A stretch of 64,000 nt of DNA from Natronolimnobius sp. AArcel1 (lineage in GTDB: Archaea; Halobacteriota; Halobacteria; Halobacteriales; Natrialbaceae), in the NCBI RefSeq assembly GCF_011043775.1, contig NZ_JAAKXY010000004.1, forward strand, positions 124,001 to 188,000, read 5' to 3'. Shown in pieces: positions 55,804 to 62,480 of the stretch. Every line of letters begins with the position of its first letter. Position 1 is the first letter of the stretch. Under the pieces are notes generated by a model. It saw only the letters and a list, made by a program, of their open reading frames with translations, was not told the origin of the DNA and did no database searches. Position numbers and translations under genes: made by a program.

Positions 55804-56781
55804 ATGGGAAACGCTGCACTCCGTGACATCGCCGTCATCGAAGACGTCCCCTTCGCCGATATCGAGGGCGTCGTCGCTGTTGACGCGCACAACTGGCTCT
55901 ATCGCTACCTGACGACCACTGTCAAGTGGACCTCGAGCGAGAAGTACACCACCGCCGACGGCACCGAGGTCGCAAACCTCATCGGCATCGTCCAGGGCCT
56001 GCCGAAGTTCTTCGAGAACGACGTCACGCCCGTCATGGTCTTCGACGGCGGCCCCTCCGACCTCAAGGAAGACGAGATTGAATCCCGCCGAGAACAGCGC
56101 CAAACGTACGAGGAACAACTCGAGGAGGCCCGTGAAGCAGGCGATCAGGTCGCCATCGCCCAACTCGAGTCCCGAACCCAGCGCCTGACGCCAACGATTC
56201 AAGAGACCAGCCGGGAACTCCTGCGATTGCTCGACGTGCCAATCGTCGAAGCGCCCGCGGAAGGAGAGGCACAGGCGGCCCACATCGTCCGCCGCGGCGA
56301 CGCGGATTATGTTGGATCGGAGGACTACGACGCCCTGCTCTTTGGCGCGCCTCGCACCCTGCGCCAACTGACGAGCAAGGGCGACCCCGAACTGATGGAC
56401 CTCGAGGCGACGCTCGCCCATCACGACCTCACGCTCGAGCAACTCATCGACGCCGCCATCCTGATCGGGACGGACTTCAACGAGGGCGTCAGGGGAATCG
56501 GCCCGAAAACGGCCATCTCGGAGATCACGGAACACGGCGACCTCTGGAGCGTTCTCGAGGCCCGCGGCGACAGCGTGGAGTACGGCGACCGCGTCCGCCA
56601 GCTGTTTCGCGACCCGAACGTGACCGACGACTACGAGTTCGACACGACGCTCGACCCGGATCTCGAGGCCGCCCGCGACTTTGTCACCGACGAGTGGGCC
56701 GTCGACGCCGACGAGGTCGAACGCGGCTTCGAACGGATCGACGAGAGCATCACGCAGGTTGGACTGGACCGCTGGACCTGA
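55804..56781 (+). CDS. fen: flap endonuclease 1
   Basis: A 325-residue XPG/Rad2 nuclease. Parts: N-region [12 protein letters not shown] with the first Asp, [15 protein letters not shown] with the second, I-region [34 protein letters not shown] (acidic metal site), and helix-hairpin-helix [12 protein letters not shown]. The C-terminus ends QVGLDRWT, the PCNA-interacting PIP box. It cleaves 5' flaps in Okazaki-fragment joining and repair. The first Met at 55804 is followed by a basic-hydrophobic start. Confidence 0.95.
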
Positions 56782-57089: not shown

Positions 57090-58310
57090 TTAGCGCTCGC
57101 TCCAGTCTCGAACGCGATCCGCAATAAACTCGCGATAGGCCCGCCCGCTCGCGTTCTCGAGGCCGCCAATCGCGGAGAGATAGCCCAGTCCGACGGTCGT
57201 CTTCAGCGCCTTCGCGGTCCGGCCAGTCACGACCGCGGGGCCGAGTTGGGCAACCGCATCGTCGCCGACGCTGACCAGCCAGCCGGGTGAGTCAAACGAG
57301 AACGATTCGGGCGTCTCTGTCTGTTCCTCGCCGTCGTCAGCCACGTGTTCTCCACTGTCGGTCACGTGTTGCTCGCTGTCAGTCGCAGTCGCCGCCTCGA
57401 GTTCGTCCGTGACAACGCGTGCAATCGCTGTCGACGCCGTTCGCGCCTCGCGAACCGCCGCCTGCGCACTGGCAGGCACCGGCTCGCCGTCGGCATCCGT
57501 TACGGCGGCAGCGTCGCCGAGTGCGAACGTCCGCTCGTCGAGTCGAAGGTCGCTCTCGACTGCGGGTCGCTCGCCAGAAAGGGCGTCCGGGCCGCGAATA
57601 CCGCCCGTCCAGACGAACTGCGCCGCTGGCAGTCGCTCGCCCGACTCGAGGACGACACGCTCCGAATCGGCTCGGAGCACGGCAGTCCCCGTCCGAACCT
57701 CGATTCCCTGCGCCTCGAGTGCGTCGCGAACGGCCTGCTGGAAGTTGTCGGGAAACGCCGGCGCGACGGACTCGAGTTGCTCGAGCAACGTGATCGTCAC
57801 GTCCGCACGCTCCTCGCGGGCGAGTACGGCCAGTTCACCCGCCGTTTGGACGCCGGAGAGCCCGGCCCCGCCAATGACGATGTGGCCGTCCGGCTGGGCG
57901 AACACCTCGAGTGCGCGCTGGCGAATCGCCATCGCATCCGCGAGCGACTTCAGTGGTGTTGCGTGCTCGCGGACACCCTCGAGTCCGTAGTAGGCCGTCT
58001 GTGCGCCCAGACAGATCGCGGCCACGTCATAGGAGAGCGTGCCACTCGAGAGCGAGATGGTCCGAGACTCGCGGTCGATTTCTTCGACGTGGGCGATGCG
58101 AACCGTAGCCCGCTCGAGAACGGCAGGGAGCGAGACGGTGATTGCCGAGGCGAGTTCCGGCCGGCGAATCACGCGATGGAGTTCGTGCTGGACGAGATGG
58201 TCGGGTTCGTCGTTAATCAGCGTGAGCTCGGCCGTATCGGGGAGTCTCTCCTCGAGCAAGCGCGTCAGCGTCAGGCCCGCATAGCCCGCGCCGAGGACGA
58301 CGACGTGCAT
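57090..58310 (-). CDS. NAD(P)/FAD-dependent oxidoreductase (NDH-2-like)
   Basis: A 406-residue flavoprotein. The first Rossmann fold is VVVLGAGYAGLTLTRLL (FAD), the second is HIVIGGAGLSGVQTAGELA (NAD), and the closing FAD motif is FALGDAAAVTDADG (GD). The catalytic disulfide motif is absent, so it is in the NDH-2/sulfide-quinone group. The substrate may be a quinone. An acidic, Thr-rich insertion (about residues 305-340) is haloarchaeal. The last 50 residues, FSFDSPGWLVSVGDDAVAQLG, could form the membrane helix. Confidence 0.83.
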   Translation of the reverse strand: MHVVVLGAGYAGLTLTRLLEERLPDTAELTLINDEPDHLVQHELHRVIRRPELASAITVSLPAVLERATVRIAHVEEIDRESRTISLSSGTLSYDVAAICLGAQTAYYGLEGVREHATPLKSLADAMAIRQRALEVFAQPDGHIVIGGAGLSGVQTAGELAVLAREERADVTITLLEQLESVAPAFPDNFQQAVRDALEAQGIEVRTGTAVLRADSERVVLESGERLPAAQFVWTGGIRGPDALSGERPAVESDLRLDERTFALGDAAAVTDADGEPVPASAQAAVREARTASTAIARVVTDELEAATATDSEQHVTDSGEHVADDGEEQTETPESFSFDSPGWLVSVGDDAVAQLGPAVVTGRTAKALKTTVGLGYLSAIGGLENASGRAYREFIADRVRDWSER

Positions 58311-58444
58311 GTGAGTCGATAGATGCTCGAGCGGTATAGCGGTTCATATCAGTGAAATCGATACTCACCATCGACAGCTAATCAAGTGCACTTGTTCTAC
58401 TACAATTTTATTGGTAACGCTTAAGGAGTGACACCGCACAGTTG

Positions 58445-58476
58445 GGGGTGAACAGCATCACCCCGATATATGGGGT
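58445..58476 (+). promoter_or_regulatory. overlapping palindromes at the nrdR promoter
   Basis: Two inverted repeats overlap. GGGGTGA-ACAGCA-TCACCCC spans 58445-58464 and ACCCC-GATATAT-GGGGT spans 58460-58476. The central GATATAT of the second is also a good TATA box, its start point falling near 58495, 13 bases before the nrdR ATG. A protein bound there would shut the promoter. A related repeat precedes purA. The second palindrome has the general form, but not the exact sequence, of NrdR boxes. Confidence 0.5.
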
Positions 58477-58507
58477 TGAACGCCTGCGGATACGAACAGA
58501 GACATCT

Positions 58508-58999
58508 ATGGACTGTCCAGATTGCAGCCACGACCGGACACGCGTCGTCGATACGGGCACGACCGACTCGATGACCGTTCGACGCCGACGCGAGTGCCAA
58601 CGCTGTTCGTTCAGATTCACCACCTACGAGCGACCCGAGTGGGACACCCTGCAGGTAAAGAAACGAGACGGACGCATCGAGTCGTTCGCCCGGGCAAAAC
58701 TCCGGGCCGGCATCGAACGCGCAGTCGAAAAACGCCCGGTCGACGAGGACACCGTCACCGACCTCGTCGACCGCATCGAGACGCGTCTGAGAGACCGAGA
58801 CACCCGAATCGTCTCGACGACCGCCATCGGCGATCTGACCTCACAGGAGCTCCGAGCAGTCGATAAAGTCGCCTACATCCGATTCGTCTCGGTCTACCGG
58901 GCCTTTTCCGACCCCGAGGAGTTCCTGCGCGAACTCGATGCCGTCCTCGAGGGCGAACACGACGATGCGTCCAACAGCACCGAGTCGGACACCACCTGA
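58508..58999 (+). CDS. nrdR: transcriptional repressor NrdR
   Basis: A 163-residue protein starting MDCPDCSHDRTRVVDT. The zinc ribbon CPDC ... ECQRCSFRFTTYER (about residues 3-42) and the ATP-cone LQVKKRDGRIESFARAKLRAG (about residues 48-68) with RPVDEDTVTDLVDRIE identify NrdR. It senses dATP/ATP and represses ribonucleotide reductase genes; here it heads the nrdA-nrdB operon, 7 bases before nrdA. An overlapping palindrome lies in its promoter. Confidence 0.95.
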   Translation: MDCPDCSHDRTRVVDTGTTDSMTVRRRRECQRCSFRFTTYERPEWDTLQVKKRDGRIESFARAKLRAGIERAVEKRPVDEDTVTDLVDRIETRLRDRDTRIVSTTAIGDLTSQELRAVDKVAYIRFVSVYRAFSDPEEFLRELDAVLEGEHDDASNSTESDTT

Positions 59000-59006
59000 C
59001 CAATAC

Positions 59007-61451
59007 ATGAGTCACACTGCACAGACAACACTCAGCAGCCGGATTCGAACCGTACTGAATCGAACGCGCGCCGAGGATGGATCGATCCTCGACGACGAGA
59101 CAGTCGACGACCTCGTCACCGAAGCCGAACGCAGCCTCTACGACGGCGCTGACGACGAGGAAATCTACGAGGGCATCCTCCACGTCCTGACCGCCCGCAT
59201 CGAACGCTACCCCGAATACAAACAGCTCGCAGCCGACGTCTTCCGCCAGCAGTACTACCGCGAAGTCATCGGCGAGGATCTCGAGGGCTTCGACCTCGAC
59301 CGCGCCTACCGCGAGACCTTCCGCGAGAATATCGAACACGGCGTCGACTGCGACCTCCTCGACGAGCGGATGGACGACCTGTTCGATCTCGAGGAACTTG
59401 CATCCTATCTCGAGCCCAAGCGCGACGAGCACTTCGAGTACATGGCGCTGGATACGCTGTATCAGCGCTATTTCCTCAAAACGGCTGACGGCGAGCGACT
59501 GGAACTCCCACAGGCGATGTGGATGCGCGTCGCGATGGGACTCGCACTCGAGGAAGATGACCCACAGGCACGCACGAAGGAGTTCTACGACGTGCTCTCC
59601 CGCCTCGAGTTTACGCCCTCCTCGCCGACGCTGTTTCACAGCGGCACGGCCCACCCACAGCTGTCCTCGTGCTATCTGACGACCATTCCAGACGATCTCG
59701 AGGGCATTTTCGATGCCTATCAGTCTCACGCCCAGCTCTCGAAGTGGAGCGGCGGCCTCGGCAACGACTGGACGAACGTCCGCGCGTCGGGCTCGCTCAT
59801 CAGTTCGACCGGCGTCGAATCGACCGGCACGGTGCCGTTCCTTCGGATTTCGAACGACGTCACCGCGGCGATCAACCGCTCGGGCAAGCGCCGCGGGGCT
59901 GCCTGTGGCTACCTCGAGTGCTGGCACCTCGATTTCCCGTCGTTCATCGACCTGAAGCGAAACACGGGCGACGAGCGCCGCCGGACGCCGGATATGAACA
60001 CGGCCGCCTGGATTCCGGACCTGTTCATGAAACGCGTCCGCGAGGGCGGCGAGTGGACGCTGTTCTCGCCTGATGAAGTGCCTGAACTCCACGAAACCTA
60101 CGGCTCGGAGTTCGCCGAGACCTACCGCGAGTACGAGCAACTGGCCGAGGATGGCGAGTTGCGCCAGTACGAACGCGTCGATGCCGCAGACCTCTGGCGC
60201 AAGACGCTTACCCGCCTGTTCGAAACCGGTCACCCGTGGGTCACGTTCAAAGATCCGTGTAACGTCCGCTCGCCACAGGACCACGAAGGCGTCGTCCACT
60301 CCTCGAACCTCTGTACCGAAATCACGCTCAACACGAGCCAGGACGAACACGCCGTCTGTAACTTAGGTAGCGTCAACCTCGTGACACACATCGAGGATGG
60401 CCGCCTCGAGCGCGAGTACCTCGCCGACACCATCGAGACGGCGATGCGGATGCTCGACAACGTCATCGACCTCTGTTTCTACCCGACCGAGGAAGCCGCC
60501 GCGTCGAACGAACGCCACCGCCCAATTGGACTCGGCGTGCTCGGCTTCCACGAGGCGCTCATGGCGACCGACACGCCGATGGCAAGCGACGACGCCGTCG
60601 AGCGTGCGAACCGCTGGCAGGAGTTTGTCTCCTATCACGCCCTGCTTAACTCCTCGCGACTCGCCAAAGAGCGCGGCGCGTACCCCTCCTACGAGGGCTC
60701 GAAGTGGGACCGCGGCCTGCTTCCACAGGACACTGTCGACGTCCTCGAGGAAGAGCGCGGGCTCGAGATTCCGACCGACCGGGAGGAAACCCTCGACTGG
60801 TACGTCGTTCGCGAACACATCGAGGAACACGGCATGCGTAACTCGAATACGATGGCAATCGCGCCGACGGCGACGATTTCGACGATCAACGGGACGACGC
60901 CCTCGATTGAGCCCCAGTACTCGAATCTCTACGTCAAATCGAACATGAGCGGCGACTTTACCGTGATCAACGACCGCCTCGTCGAGGACCTGCGCGACCG
61001 CGACCGCTGGGACGACGAGATGGTCGACCGCATCAAGTTCCACGACGGCTCGATTCAGGAGATTGACGCCATCCCGGACGACGTTCAGGAACTGTACCGC
61101 TCCGCGTTCGAAATCGACCCGCGCCACCAGTTGCACTTGACCGCCGTCCGCCAGACGTGGATCGACCAGTCGATCTCGCACAACGTCTTCTTCCCCAGCA
61201 CCGACGGCTCGCTGCTCGACGACATCTACCAGACGGCCTGGGAACTCGGCCTCAAAACCACCTACTACCTCCGGACGCTCGGGGCCTCCCAGATCGAGAA
61301 ATCCACCCTCGACCTTGACGAGTACGGGAAAACGCAGCACCGCTCGAGTGGGGACGAGACGGCCACAACGGACGACGCGGTCAAGACGGACGGCGGCGAC
61401 GACAGCGAACTCTGTCGCGTCGAAGATCCGACCTGCGACGCCTGTCAGTAA
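59007..61451 (+). CDS. nrdA: ribonucleoside-diphosphate reductase, large subunit (class I)
   Basis: An 814-residue NrdA. N-terminal segment has no clear ATP-cone pattern. The active-site region reads QLSSCYLTTIPDD (first reductive Cys), NLCTEITLNTS (thiyl Cys) and AVCNLGSVNLV (second reductive Cys). PTATISTINGTTPSIEPQYSN binds the substrate phosphates. The C-terminus LCRVEDPTCDACQ gives the Cys pair that passes electrons in. It lies between nrdR and nrdB. Start at the ATG 59007; the frame extends upstream inside nrdR. Confidence 0.95.
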   Translation: MSHTAQTTLSSRIRTVLNRTRAEDGSILDDETVDDLVTEAERSLYDGADDEEIYEGILHVLTARIERYPEYKQLAADVFRQQYYREVIGEDLEGFDLDRAYRETFRENIEHGVDCDLLDERMDDLFDLEELASYLEPKRDEHFEYMALDTLYQRYFLKTADGERLELPQAMWMRVAMGLALEEDDPQARTKEFYDVLSRLEFTPSSPTLFHSGTAHPQLSSCYLTTIPDDLEGIFDAYQSHAQLSKWSGGLGNDWTNVRASGSLISSTGVESTGTVPFLRISNDVTAAINRSGKRRGAACGYLECWHLDFPSFIDLKRNTGDERRRTPDMNTAAWIPDLFMKRVREGGEWTLFSPDEVPELHETYGSEFAETYREYEQLAEDGELRQYERVDAADLWRKTLTRLFETGHPWVTFKDPCNVRSPQDHEGVVHSSNLCTEITLNTSQDEHAVCNLGSVNLVTHIEDGRLEREYLADTIETAMRMLDNVIDLCFYPTEEAAASNERHRPIGLGVLGFHEALMATDTPMASDDAVERANRWQEFVSYHALLNSSRLAKERGAYPSYEGSKWDRGLLPQDTVDVLEEERGLEIPTDREETLDWYVVREHIEEHGMRNSNTMAIAPTATISTINGTTPSIEPQYSNLYVKSNMSGDFTVINDRLVEDLRDRDRWDDEMVDRIKFHDGSIQEIDAIPDDVQELYRSAFEIDPRHQLHLTAVRQTWIDQSISHNVFFPSTDGSLLDDIYQTAWELGLKTTYYLRTLGASQIEKSTLDLDEYGKTQHRSSGDETATTDDAVKTDGGDDSELCRVEDPTCDACQ

Positions 61452-61487: not shown

Positions 61488-62480
61488 ATGCCAGTCATCA
61501 ATAACGACGACCAGCACGACCCGAACAAGATCCTTCCAATCGACTACGAGTGGGCACGCGAGTACTACGAAGCCGGCGTTGCGAACAACTGGGTGCCCGA
61601 AGAGATCCCGATGCAAGACGACATTCGCCAGTGGGAAGGCGACGCACTCACCGCCGACGAGCGCCGCCTCGTCGAGTGGAACCTCGGCTTTTTCTCGACA
61701 GCCGAATCCCTGACTGCGAACAACATCGTCCTCGCACTCTACGAGTACGTCACTGCGCCCGAATGTCGCCAGTACCTCCTGCGCCAGGCCTACGAGGAGG
61801 CGATTCACACGGACACGTTCATCTACTGCTGTGACTCGCTTGGCTTCGAACCCGAGTACATGTACGGCATGTACGACCGCATCCCCTCGATCCAGGCGAA
61901 AGACGAGTATGTCGTCGACCTCACCCGCGTCGTCACCGAACCGGAGTTCACCCTCGAGACCGAAGAGGACCTCCGCGAGTTCCTGCGCGACGTGATCGGC
62001 TTCTACGTCATCATGGAGGGCATCTTCTTCTATGCCGGCTTTGCCATGATGCTCGGGCTGAAACGCCAGAACAAGATGGTCGGAATCGGCCAGCAGTTCG
62101 AGTACATCCTCCGCGATGAGTCCCTGCACGTCGGCTTCGGCGTCGACCTCATTGAGCAGGTGCGTACCGAAAACCCCGGCGTCTGGACTGACGAGTTCGG
62201 CGAGACTGTCATCGACCTCATCACCGAAGCCGTCGAACTCGAGAAACGCTACGCCACTGAGGCCTGCCCGGACGAGATGCTCGGGATGGGTCCAGCGCAG
62301 TTCGCAGAGTACGTCGAACACATCGCAGATCGGCGTCTCGAGCAACTCGACTTGCCCAAACAGTACGAGACGGAGAACCCGTTCCCATGGATGTCCGAGC
62401 AGGTCGACCTGAACAAAGAGAAGAACTTCTTCGAGACGCAGGTCACAGAGTACCAGAGCGGCGGATCGCTGGACTGGTAA
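61488..62480 (+). CDS. nrdB: ribonucleoside-diphosphate reductase, small subunit (class Ic-like)
   Basis: A 330-residue R2 protein. Metal ligands fit as Glu73 (STAES), Glu104 and His107 (EEAIH), Glu177 (IMEGIFF) and Glu211/His214 (DESLH). Where E. coli has Tyr122, this has Phe111 (HTDTF), and where it has Asp84, this has Glu73. Both are the signature of the chlamydial class Ic enzymes, which use a Mn(IV)/Fe(III) centre in place of a tyrosyl radical. A class Ia/Ib type radical is therefore not expected. It follows nrdA with 36 bases. Confidence 0.95.
   Translation: MPVINNDDQHDPNKILPIDYEWAREYYEAGVANNWVPEEIPMQDDIRQWEGDALTADERRLVEWNLGFFSTAESLTANNIVLALYEYVTAPECRQYLLRQAYEEAIHTDTFIYCCDSLGFEPEYMYGMYDRIPSIQAKDEYVVDLTRVVTEPEFTLETEEDLREFLRDVIGFYVIMEGIFFYAGFAMMLGLKRQNKMVGIGQQFEYILRDESLHVGFGVDLIEQVRTENPGVWTDEFGETVIDLITEAVELEKRYATEACPDEMLGMGPAQFAEYVEHIADRRLEQLDLPKQYETENPFPWMSEQVDLNKEKNFFETQVTEYQSGGSLDW

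Follow-up and report, generated by a model that had tools for sequence, protein, structure and literature searches.

The ribonucleotide reductase (RNR) operon nrdR-nrdA-nrdB of Natronolimnobius sp. AArcel1 is preceded by two overlapping inverted repeats, which raises the question of whether they serve as an operator, which protein would bind them, and how they are placed relative to the core promoter. In the window, i.e., the whole analyzed stretch of 64,000 nucleotides, the operon lies on the plus strand and encodes the transcriptional repressor NrdR with its Zn ribbon and ATP cone (58508..58999, start codon ATG at 58508), followed by the large (nrdA, 59007..61451) and small (nrdB, 61488..62480) subunits of class I RNR. 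The divergent gene upstream of the nrdR promoter encodes a pyridine-nucleotide oxidoreductase (57090-58310, minus strand), and a flap endonuclease-like gene (XPG_N, XPG_I) is found two genes upstream (55804-56778). Both repeats are present as written in the initial annotation: palindrome 1, GGGGTGA-ACAGCA-TCACCCC (58445..58464, no strand assigned), and palindrome 2, ACCCC-GATATAT-GGGGT (58460..58476, plus strand), overlap by 5 bases. We propose that palindrome 2 and a further box upstream of its center constitute the two-box NrdR operator of the operon, which is located just downstream of the BRE/TATA elements and would repress both RNR and nrdR; we assign this reading a probability of roughly 0.8, based on the conservation, spacing and position of the boxes, their co-occurrence with NrdR, and their match to the key letters of bacterial NrdR boxes.

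The region was rightly described as an nrdR promoter, as the downstream gene product scores 152.7 bits with TIGR00244 (cut-off 124.65) and exceeds the cut-offs of the Pfam models for the Zn ribbon (Zn_ribbon_NrdR) and the ATP cone (PF22811 and PF03477). Its translated Zn ribbon contains two CxxC motifs and an RRRR motif (MDCPDC...RRRRECQRC). In the Streptomyces coelicolor NrdR, bases are contacted by D15 and R17, and the R17A substitution abolishes binding (PMC9110341). The window protein retains D15, which aligns with D15 of the solved NrdR 9fxk; the second base-reading residue, R17, is missing from it in the alignment of 62 haloarchaeal rows, with G17 in its place. This arginine is present in 6 of the 62 rows and replaced in most. 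R17 being a bacterial feature, the window protein remains an NrdR by model and may read DNA differently.

According to the papers on bacterial NrdR, this regulator is rare in archaea. Among 125 genomes of the family, a protein search found it in 15, a count that includes the weak match G036, later dropped, and it occurs in 63 of 391 genomes of the class. Homologous nrdA genes without nrdR exist in many haloarchaea, and the RNR promoters with versus without NrdR form a natural experiment. The analyzed set of 62 NrdR+ promoters leaves out five duplicates, the spurious L016, and L017, L020, L030, L099, and L137, which were overly divergent or unlike haloarchaeal sequences; it includes L014 and L015, in which nrdR is apparently broken. 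For comparison we used 74 nrdA promoters without adjacent nrdR, whose NrdR-less status is partly presumed, as genomes not named NrdR+ were counted as NrdR-less on the assumption of the same 391-genome set; one of them, L186, comes from a genome that encodes NrdR, on a different contig.

The matrix used for scoring each NrdR+ promoter was trained with sequences similar to that promoter left out. Palindrome 2 (predicted NrdR box 2, ACCCCGATATATGGGGT, centered between 58468 and 58469) reaches 23.6 bits in the window versus 9.5 bits for the 99th percentile of shuffled sequences. When its conservation was checked in relatives having nrdR, the site was found to be kept, with 5 bits or more in 60 of the 62 NrdR+ promoters versus 2 of 74 nrdA promoters without adjacent nrdR (medians 16.2 and -2.7, p = 4e-23). 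The form shared by the relatives in the 62 aligned promoters is CCCCACATATGGGGTT. Counted from its center, box 2 of the window has C-5, C-7, G+5, G+7, and the core ATATAT. These letters bear on the claim that the sequence does not match the bacterial NrdR box, which proved wrong at the key positions, as the C and G pairs and the AT core agree with the bacterial consensus. In the two bacterial boxes, conserved C and G pairs occupy positions 9/18 and 40/49 (PMC9110341). Like an NrdR box, box 2 is a palindrome with C and G ten positions apart and an AT core, and the box pair is located at an RNR operon promoter. One of the two exceptions among the NrdR-less promoters is L182 (7.7 bits, at an odd offset). 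The other, L225 (G126), has a strong box 2, GACCCCCGATATCCGGGGTT, of 16.8 bits and no box 1, in a genome without an NrdR Zn ribbon.

Palindrome 1 presents a different picture. The 64-kb window contains 14 perfect palindromes of this layout (7-bp arms, 6-base loop), and ten first-order Markov simulations contained 4-13; being about as common in simulated sequence, such a repeat is not unusual by itself. Its exact pattern has a single occurrence in the 4.56-Mb genome, and 2 of the 62 aligned nrdR promoters carry it, both from the window's genus. It joins two half-sites, the right one of box 1 and the left one of box 2; as the former is a run of G and the latter a run of C, it tends to look complementary. 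A role of palindrome 1 as a separate operator was rejected given this narrow distribution and the chance-level count, and the two repeats do not hold up as equal partners, since the first has no conservation outside the window's genus. Positions 58401-58486 are identical in both species of the genus; this is weak evidence of strong constraint inside the genus, given four longer identical runs within or reaching coding sequence.

The 62 distinct nrdR upstream regions have, in addition to box 2, a box 1 with the form ACACCAGATATTGCGGT in the relatives. The predicted box 1 of the window (TGACACCGCACAGTTGGGGGT, 58429..58449, plus strand) has an intact left half, ACACC, and one base inserted before the right half; it has no score when ungapped (-0.8 bits) and obtains 8.2 bits with one insertion at a 3-bit penalty, a value reached by 0.25% of 2000 shuffles. 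This 1-bp insertion is a feature of the window's genus. Box 1 medians are 21.9 bits for NrdR+ promoters versus -6.1 bits for nrdA promoters without adjacent nrdR, and box-1-like sequence is retained by the NrdR-less promoters L157 (22.8 bits), L190 (16.7), L154 (16.1), L202 (10.9), and L180 (10.7), so that box 1 may overlap or serve as an initiator, or be a remnant there. The centers of boxes 1 and 2 are 29 bp apart in 29 of 62 promoters and 30 bp apart in 33; the left half of the window box 1 lies 30 bp from box 2, as in L149, the nearest relative outside the genus. The bacterial norm for such boxes, about three helical turns apart, is 31-32 bp. With 16-bp boxes the haloarchaeal distances correspond to spacers of 13-14 bp, which is inside the known range given that Listeria NrdR binds DNA with 13- and 14-bp spacers (KD of 11 and 2 nM, respectively), whereas Streptococcus NrdR does not tolerate them (PMC12051234).

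Comparison with the described bacterial NrdR boxes of S. coelicolor nrdRJ, E. coli nrdHIEF, and the Listeria and Streptococcus nrd operons (PMC9110341, PMC12051234, PMC12176259) reveals the same arrangement: a tandem pair of palindromic boxes in which conserved C and G stand ten positions apart around an AT core, a location at an nrdR/RNR promoter, and an NrdR gene present in the genome. The key C and G positions of the haloarchaeal boxes fit the bacterial box supported by cryo-EM. The predicted haloarchaeal operators differ in their center distance (29-30 versus 31-32), in the CCCC/GGGG arms of box 2, in an NrdR that mostly lacks R17, and in their promoter context: they follow archaeal BRE/TATA elements and overlap the inferred transcription start, whereas the bacterial boxes are associated with sigma-factor elements instead.

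The relation to the core promoter is where our interpretation departs from the initial annotation, in which the center of palindrome 2 was taken for a TATA box, so that a bound repressor would cover TBP. Haloarchaeal promoters have TTWT as TATA and CGAAA as BRE (PMC4983044), and an upstream block GGGAAAGTTTTATG fits these letters and persists in promoters lacking box 2. In the window this putative BRE/TATA block (TTGGTAACGCTTAAGG, 58411..58426, plus strand; TTGGGAAAGTTTTATG in relatives), predicted from promoter alignment and PWM, is located about 40 nt upstream of ATATAT and is the top core-promoter match in 58311-58507 (8.75 bits; shuffle 95% level of 8.0). It is common to the NrdR+ promoters and to the 74 comparison promoters, which mostly lack box 2; together with a further conserved upstream element it scores above the shuffle maximum in 74 of 74 (lowest 14.2 bits versus -5.7). 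TATA, TTTA or TTAA is found in just 9 of the 62 aligned box 2 cores. Thus, the ATATAT sequence most likely represents the kinkable AT core of an NrdR box rather than a TATA box. Transcription probably starts near box 1, at about 58447-58450 in the window by the usual TATA-to-start spacing, in which case what NrdR would block is the start region immediately following TATA, and not TBP.

The window's genus itself could be a special case, in which the promoter has moved so that ATATAT at 58466-58471 acts as TATA, transcription starts at about 58493-58497 with a short leader, and NrdR bound to box 2 blocks TBP. The ancestral TATA is weak there (CTTAAG), which leaves a shifted promoter conceivable, and the box 2 core happens to read ATATAT. 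Moreover, the TATA anchor is 23-25 from the center of box 1 in 60 of 62 promoters and 16 in the window's genus, where box 1 is 8 bp closer to TATA. The translation signals have changed as well: 41 of 62 nrdR upstream regions have a Shine-Dalgarno sequence, 50 carry GTG in frame, nine bases ahead of the ATG, and 38 have both, whereas the window's genus lacks both features of its relatives. Nevertheless, the upstream block is still the top core-promoter match and does not differ between the two species of the genus, the rarity of TATA-like box 2 cores among relatives speaks against such a role, and the upstream TATA is retained in all 74 nrdA promoters that mostly lack box 2; we therefore regard a moved promoter as unlikely. 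In most haloarchaea, e.g., L112, though not in the window's genus, nrdR may start at the GTG (VTTMxCPxC).

The initial annotation also suggested that the repeats could form competing hairpins in the 5' leader, controlling translation or attenuation. The arms are able to pair in RNA; however, the leader folds no better than shuffled sequences (z-score of -0.31, its stability being equaled or exceeded by 69 of 200 shuffles), the inverted repeat of box 1 is only partial, and palindrome 1 is absent outside the genus, which makes such control very improbable.

The box pair follows nrdR in its distribution among operons and genomes. It precedes nrdR-nrdA-nrdB in 35 of 62 loci and nrdR-nrdB-nrdA in 26 of 62, the one further locus ending too early. 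The haloarchaeal class I RNRs of these two operon types have been traced to separate bacterial sources (Lundin et al., 2010, PMC3019208), and the common feature of the two unrelated operon types is nrdR, not the enzyme genes. The gene order of the window is that of Natrialba magadii and others in the same paper, where a horizontal origin was proposed; its available text yielded no operator or promoter analysis. On the nrdA tree (51 rows), in which the box 2 score was set by hand to 10 for 12 NrdR+ rows (true values 10.7-19.1), NrdR changes 8 times, and box 2 changes along with it in 4.4 of 5 independent pairs on the starred branches and never in the opposite direction; the corresponding sign test stays at 0.0625-0.25, above 0.05, because of the few pairs. 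In the genome of L186 (G407), NrdR adjoins an operon of the nrdB-nrdA type on one contig and the window-type nrdA is separate, on another. The promoter of the latter has no boxes (box 2 score of -1.1 bits), so NrdR seems not to act on that nrdA.

A box-pair model built solely from sequence (42 box pairs, with the window's genus left out) produced one significant match in 27 of 30 NrdR+ genomes, always at nrdR (E at most 2.2e-5). No second site was significant in these 30 genomes, the next best having E = 0.08, among the 150 candidates scored per genome out of 453-913 first-look ones, so that weak further sites may escape this search. The remaining genomes, G000, G096, and G261, give a score for the box 2 half alone. 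L147 (G261) encodes an NrdR with S15 instead of D15, and its promoter has box 2 and has lost box 1. The class II RNR gene nrdJ was considered as a further NrdR target and rejected, as nhmmer found no box-pair match in the nrdJ locus L175.

The repeats might instead be sites of another DNA-binding protein that is co-retained with nrdR, e.g., a winged-helix or RHH regulator, as the missing R17 and the presence of box 2 without NrdR in G126 could suggest. This is quite improbable, because the boxes are present or absent together with NrdR, both through the losses on the tree and in two unrelated operons, and because a concordance between residue 17 and an operator base ties the box to NrdR itself. 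The base in question is at position -4 of box 1, beside the conserved C: it is C in all 62 called rows without R17 and G or T in all 10 called rows with R17 (added genomes included), and residue and base are concordant in 71 of 71 scored rows, a count in which the L017 base was assigned by eye and which omits six rows without a call or outside the pairing. On the NrdR tree (76 rows, columns 15-18 removed), residue 17 and base -4 each change twice, at the same two places; the two independent pairs are both concordant (p = 0.5), so the association is suggestive and not significant by itself. One possible reading is that a bacterial repressor, having entered haloarchaea along with RNR genes, was refitted to an archaeal promoter with a new DNA-reading code, in which loss of the otherwise essential Arg17 was accompanied by a change of the base next to the conserved C to C, and the return of Arg17 in a nested clade by a reversion to G or T. 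If true, residue 17 of NrdR together with base -4 of the operator would be a natural specificity switch, one residue and one base possibly setting NrdR specificity. In L014 and L015 (genus g16), nrdR looks broken, with the zinc cysteines gone and a truncated match, possibly reflecting ongoing decay; their box 2 scores are 3.3 bits (weak) for L014 and 11.6 bits for L015, where the box is present.

Under the proposed NrdR operator, box 1 would fall approximately at the transcription start and box 2 within the leader. With ample dATP, a tetramer of NrdR would clamp both boxes, each of its two Zn-ribbon pairs kinking the AT core of one box, and thereby keep RNA polymerase off, so that NrdR represses RNR and itself. 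Binding, dATP dependence, repression, and the start site are all predictions from sequence. In the window's genus, where box 2 is intact and box 1 carries the insertion and is nearer to TATA, box 2 may carry most of the repression, or repression may be weaker. Several observations count against the operator: the spacing is 1-3 bp below the bacterial 31-32, R17 is replaced by G, the window box 1 scores only with an insertion, G126 has box 2 without NrdR, box-1-like sequence is retained by several NrdR-less promoters, and the sign test on independent pairs stays above 0.05. Of the initial interpretation, a repressor site at the nrdR promoter that is conserved in relatives, with NrdR as the candidate, stands, whereas the equal palindromes, the covering of TBP, and the RNA hairpins are wrong or lack support. 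No description of an archaeal NrdR operator was found in the open-access literature covered; the box pair provides a concrete predicted one and indicates where a bacterial repressor could sit on a TBP/TFB promoter.

The upstream element that accompanies BRE/TATA, a putative regulator site, was identified in the window as TTGTTCTACTACAA (58392..58405, plus strand) from the profiles of the 62 NrdR+ and 74 other RNR promoters. In these it appears upstream of TATA as TTGTACTACATCAA or TTGTACTACTGAAA, with ACAA a few bases before, and TTGTWCTACWNCAA has no occurrence in the genome besides the window copy. The element could be where an RNR-wide activator binds. CdrS was considered as its owner and set aside, as the published passages on CdrS give no motif letters. 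The promoter of the class II nrdJ gene in the same genome contains a look-alike, TTGTAGTATTCCAA (at about 1254 of L175).
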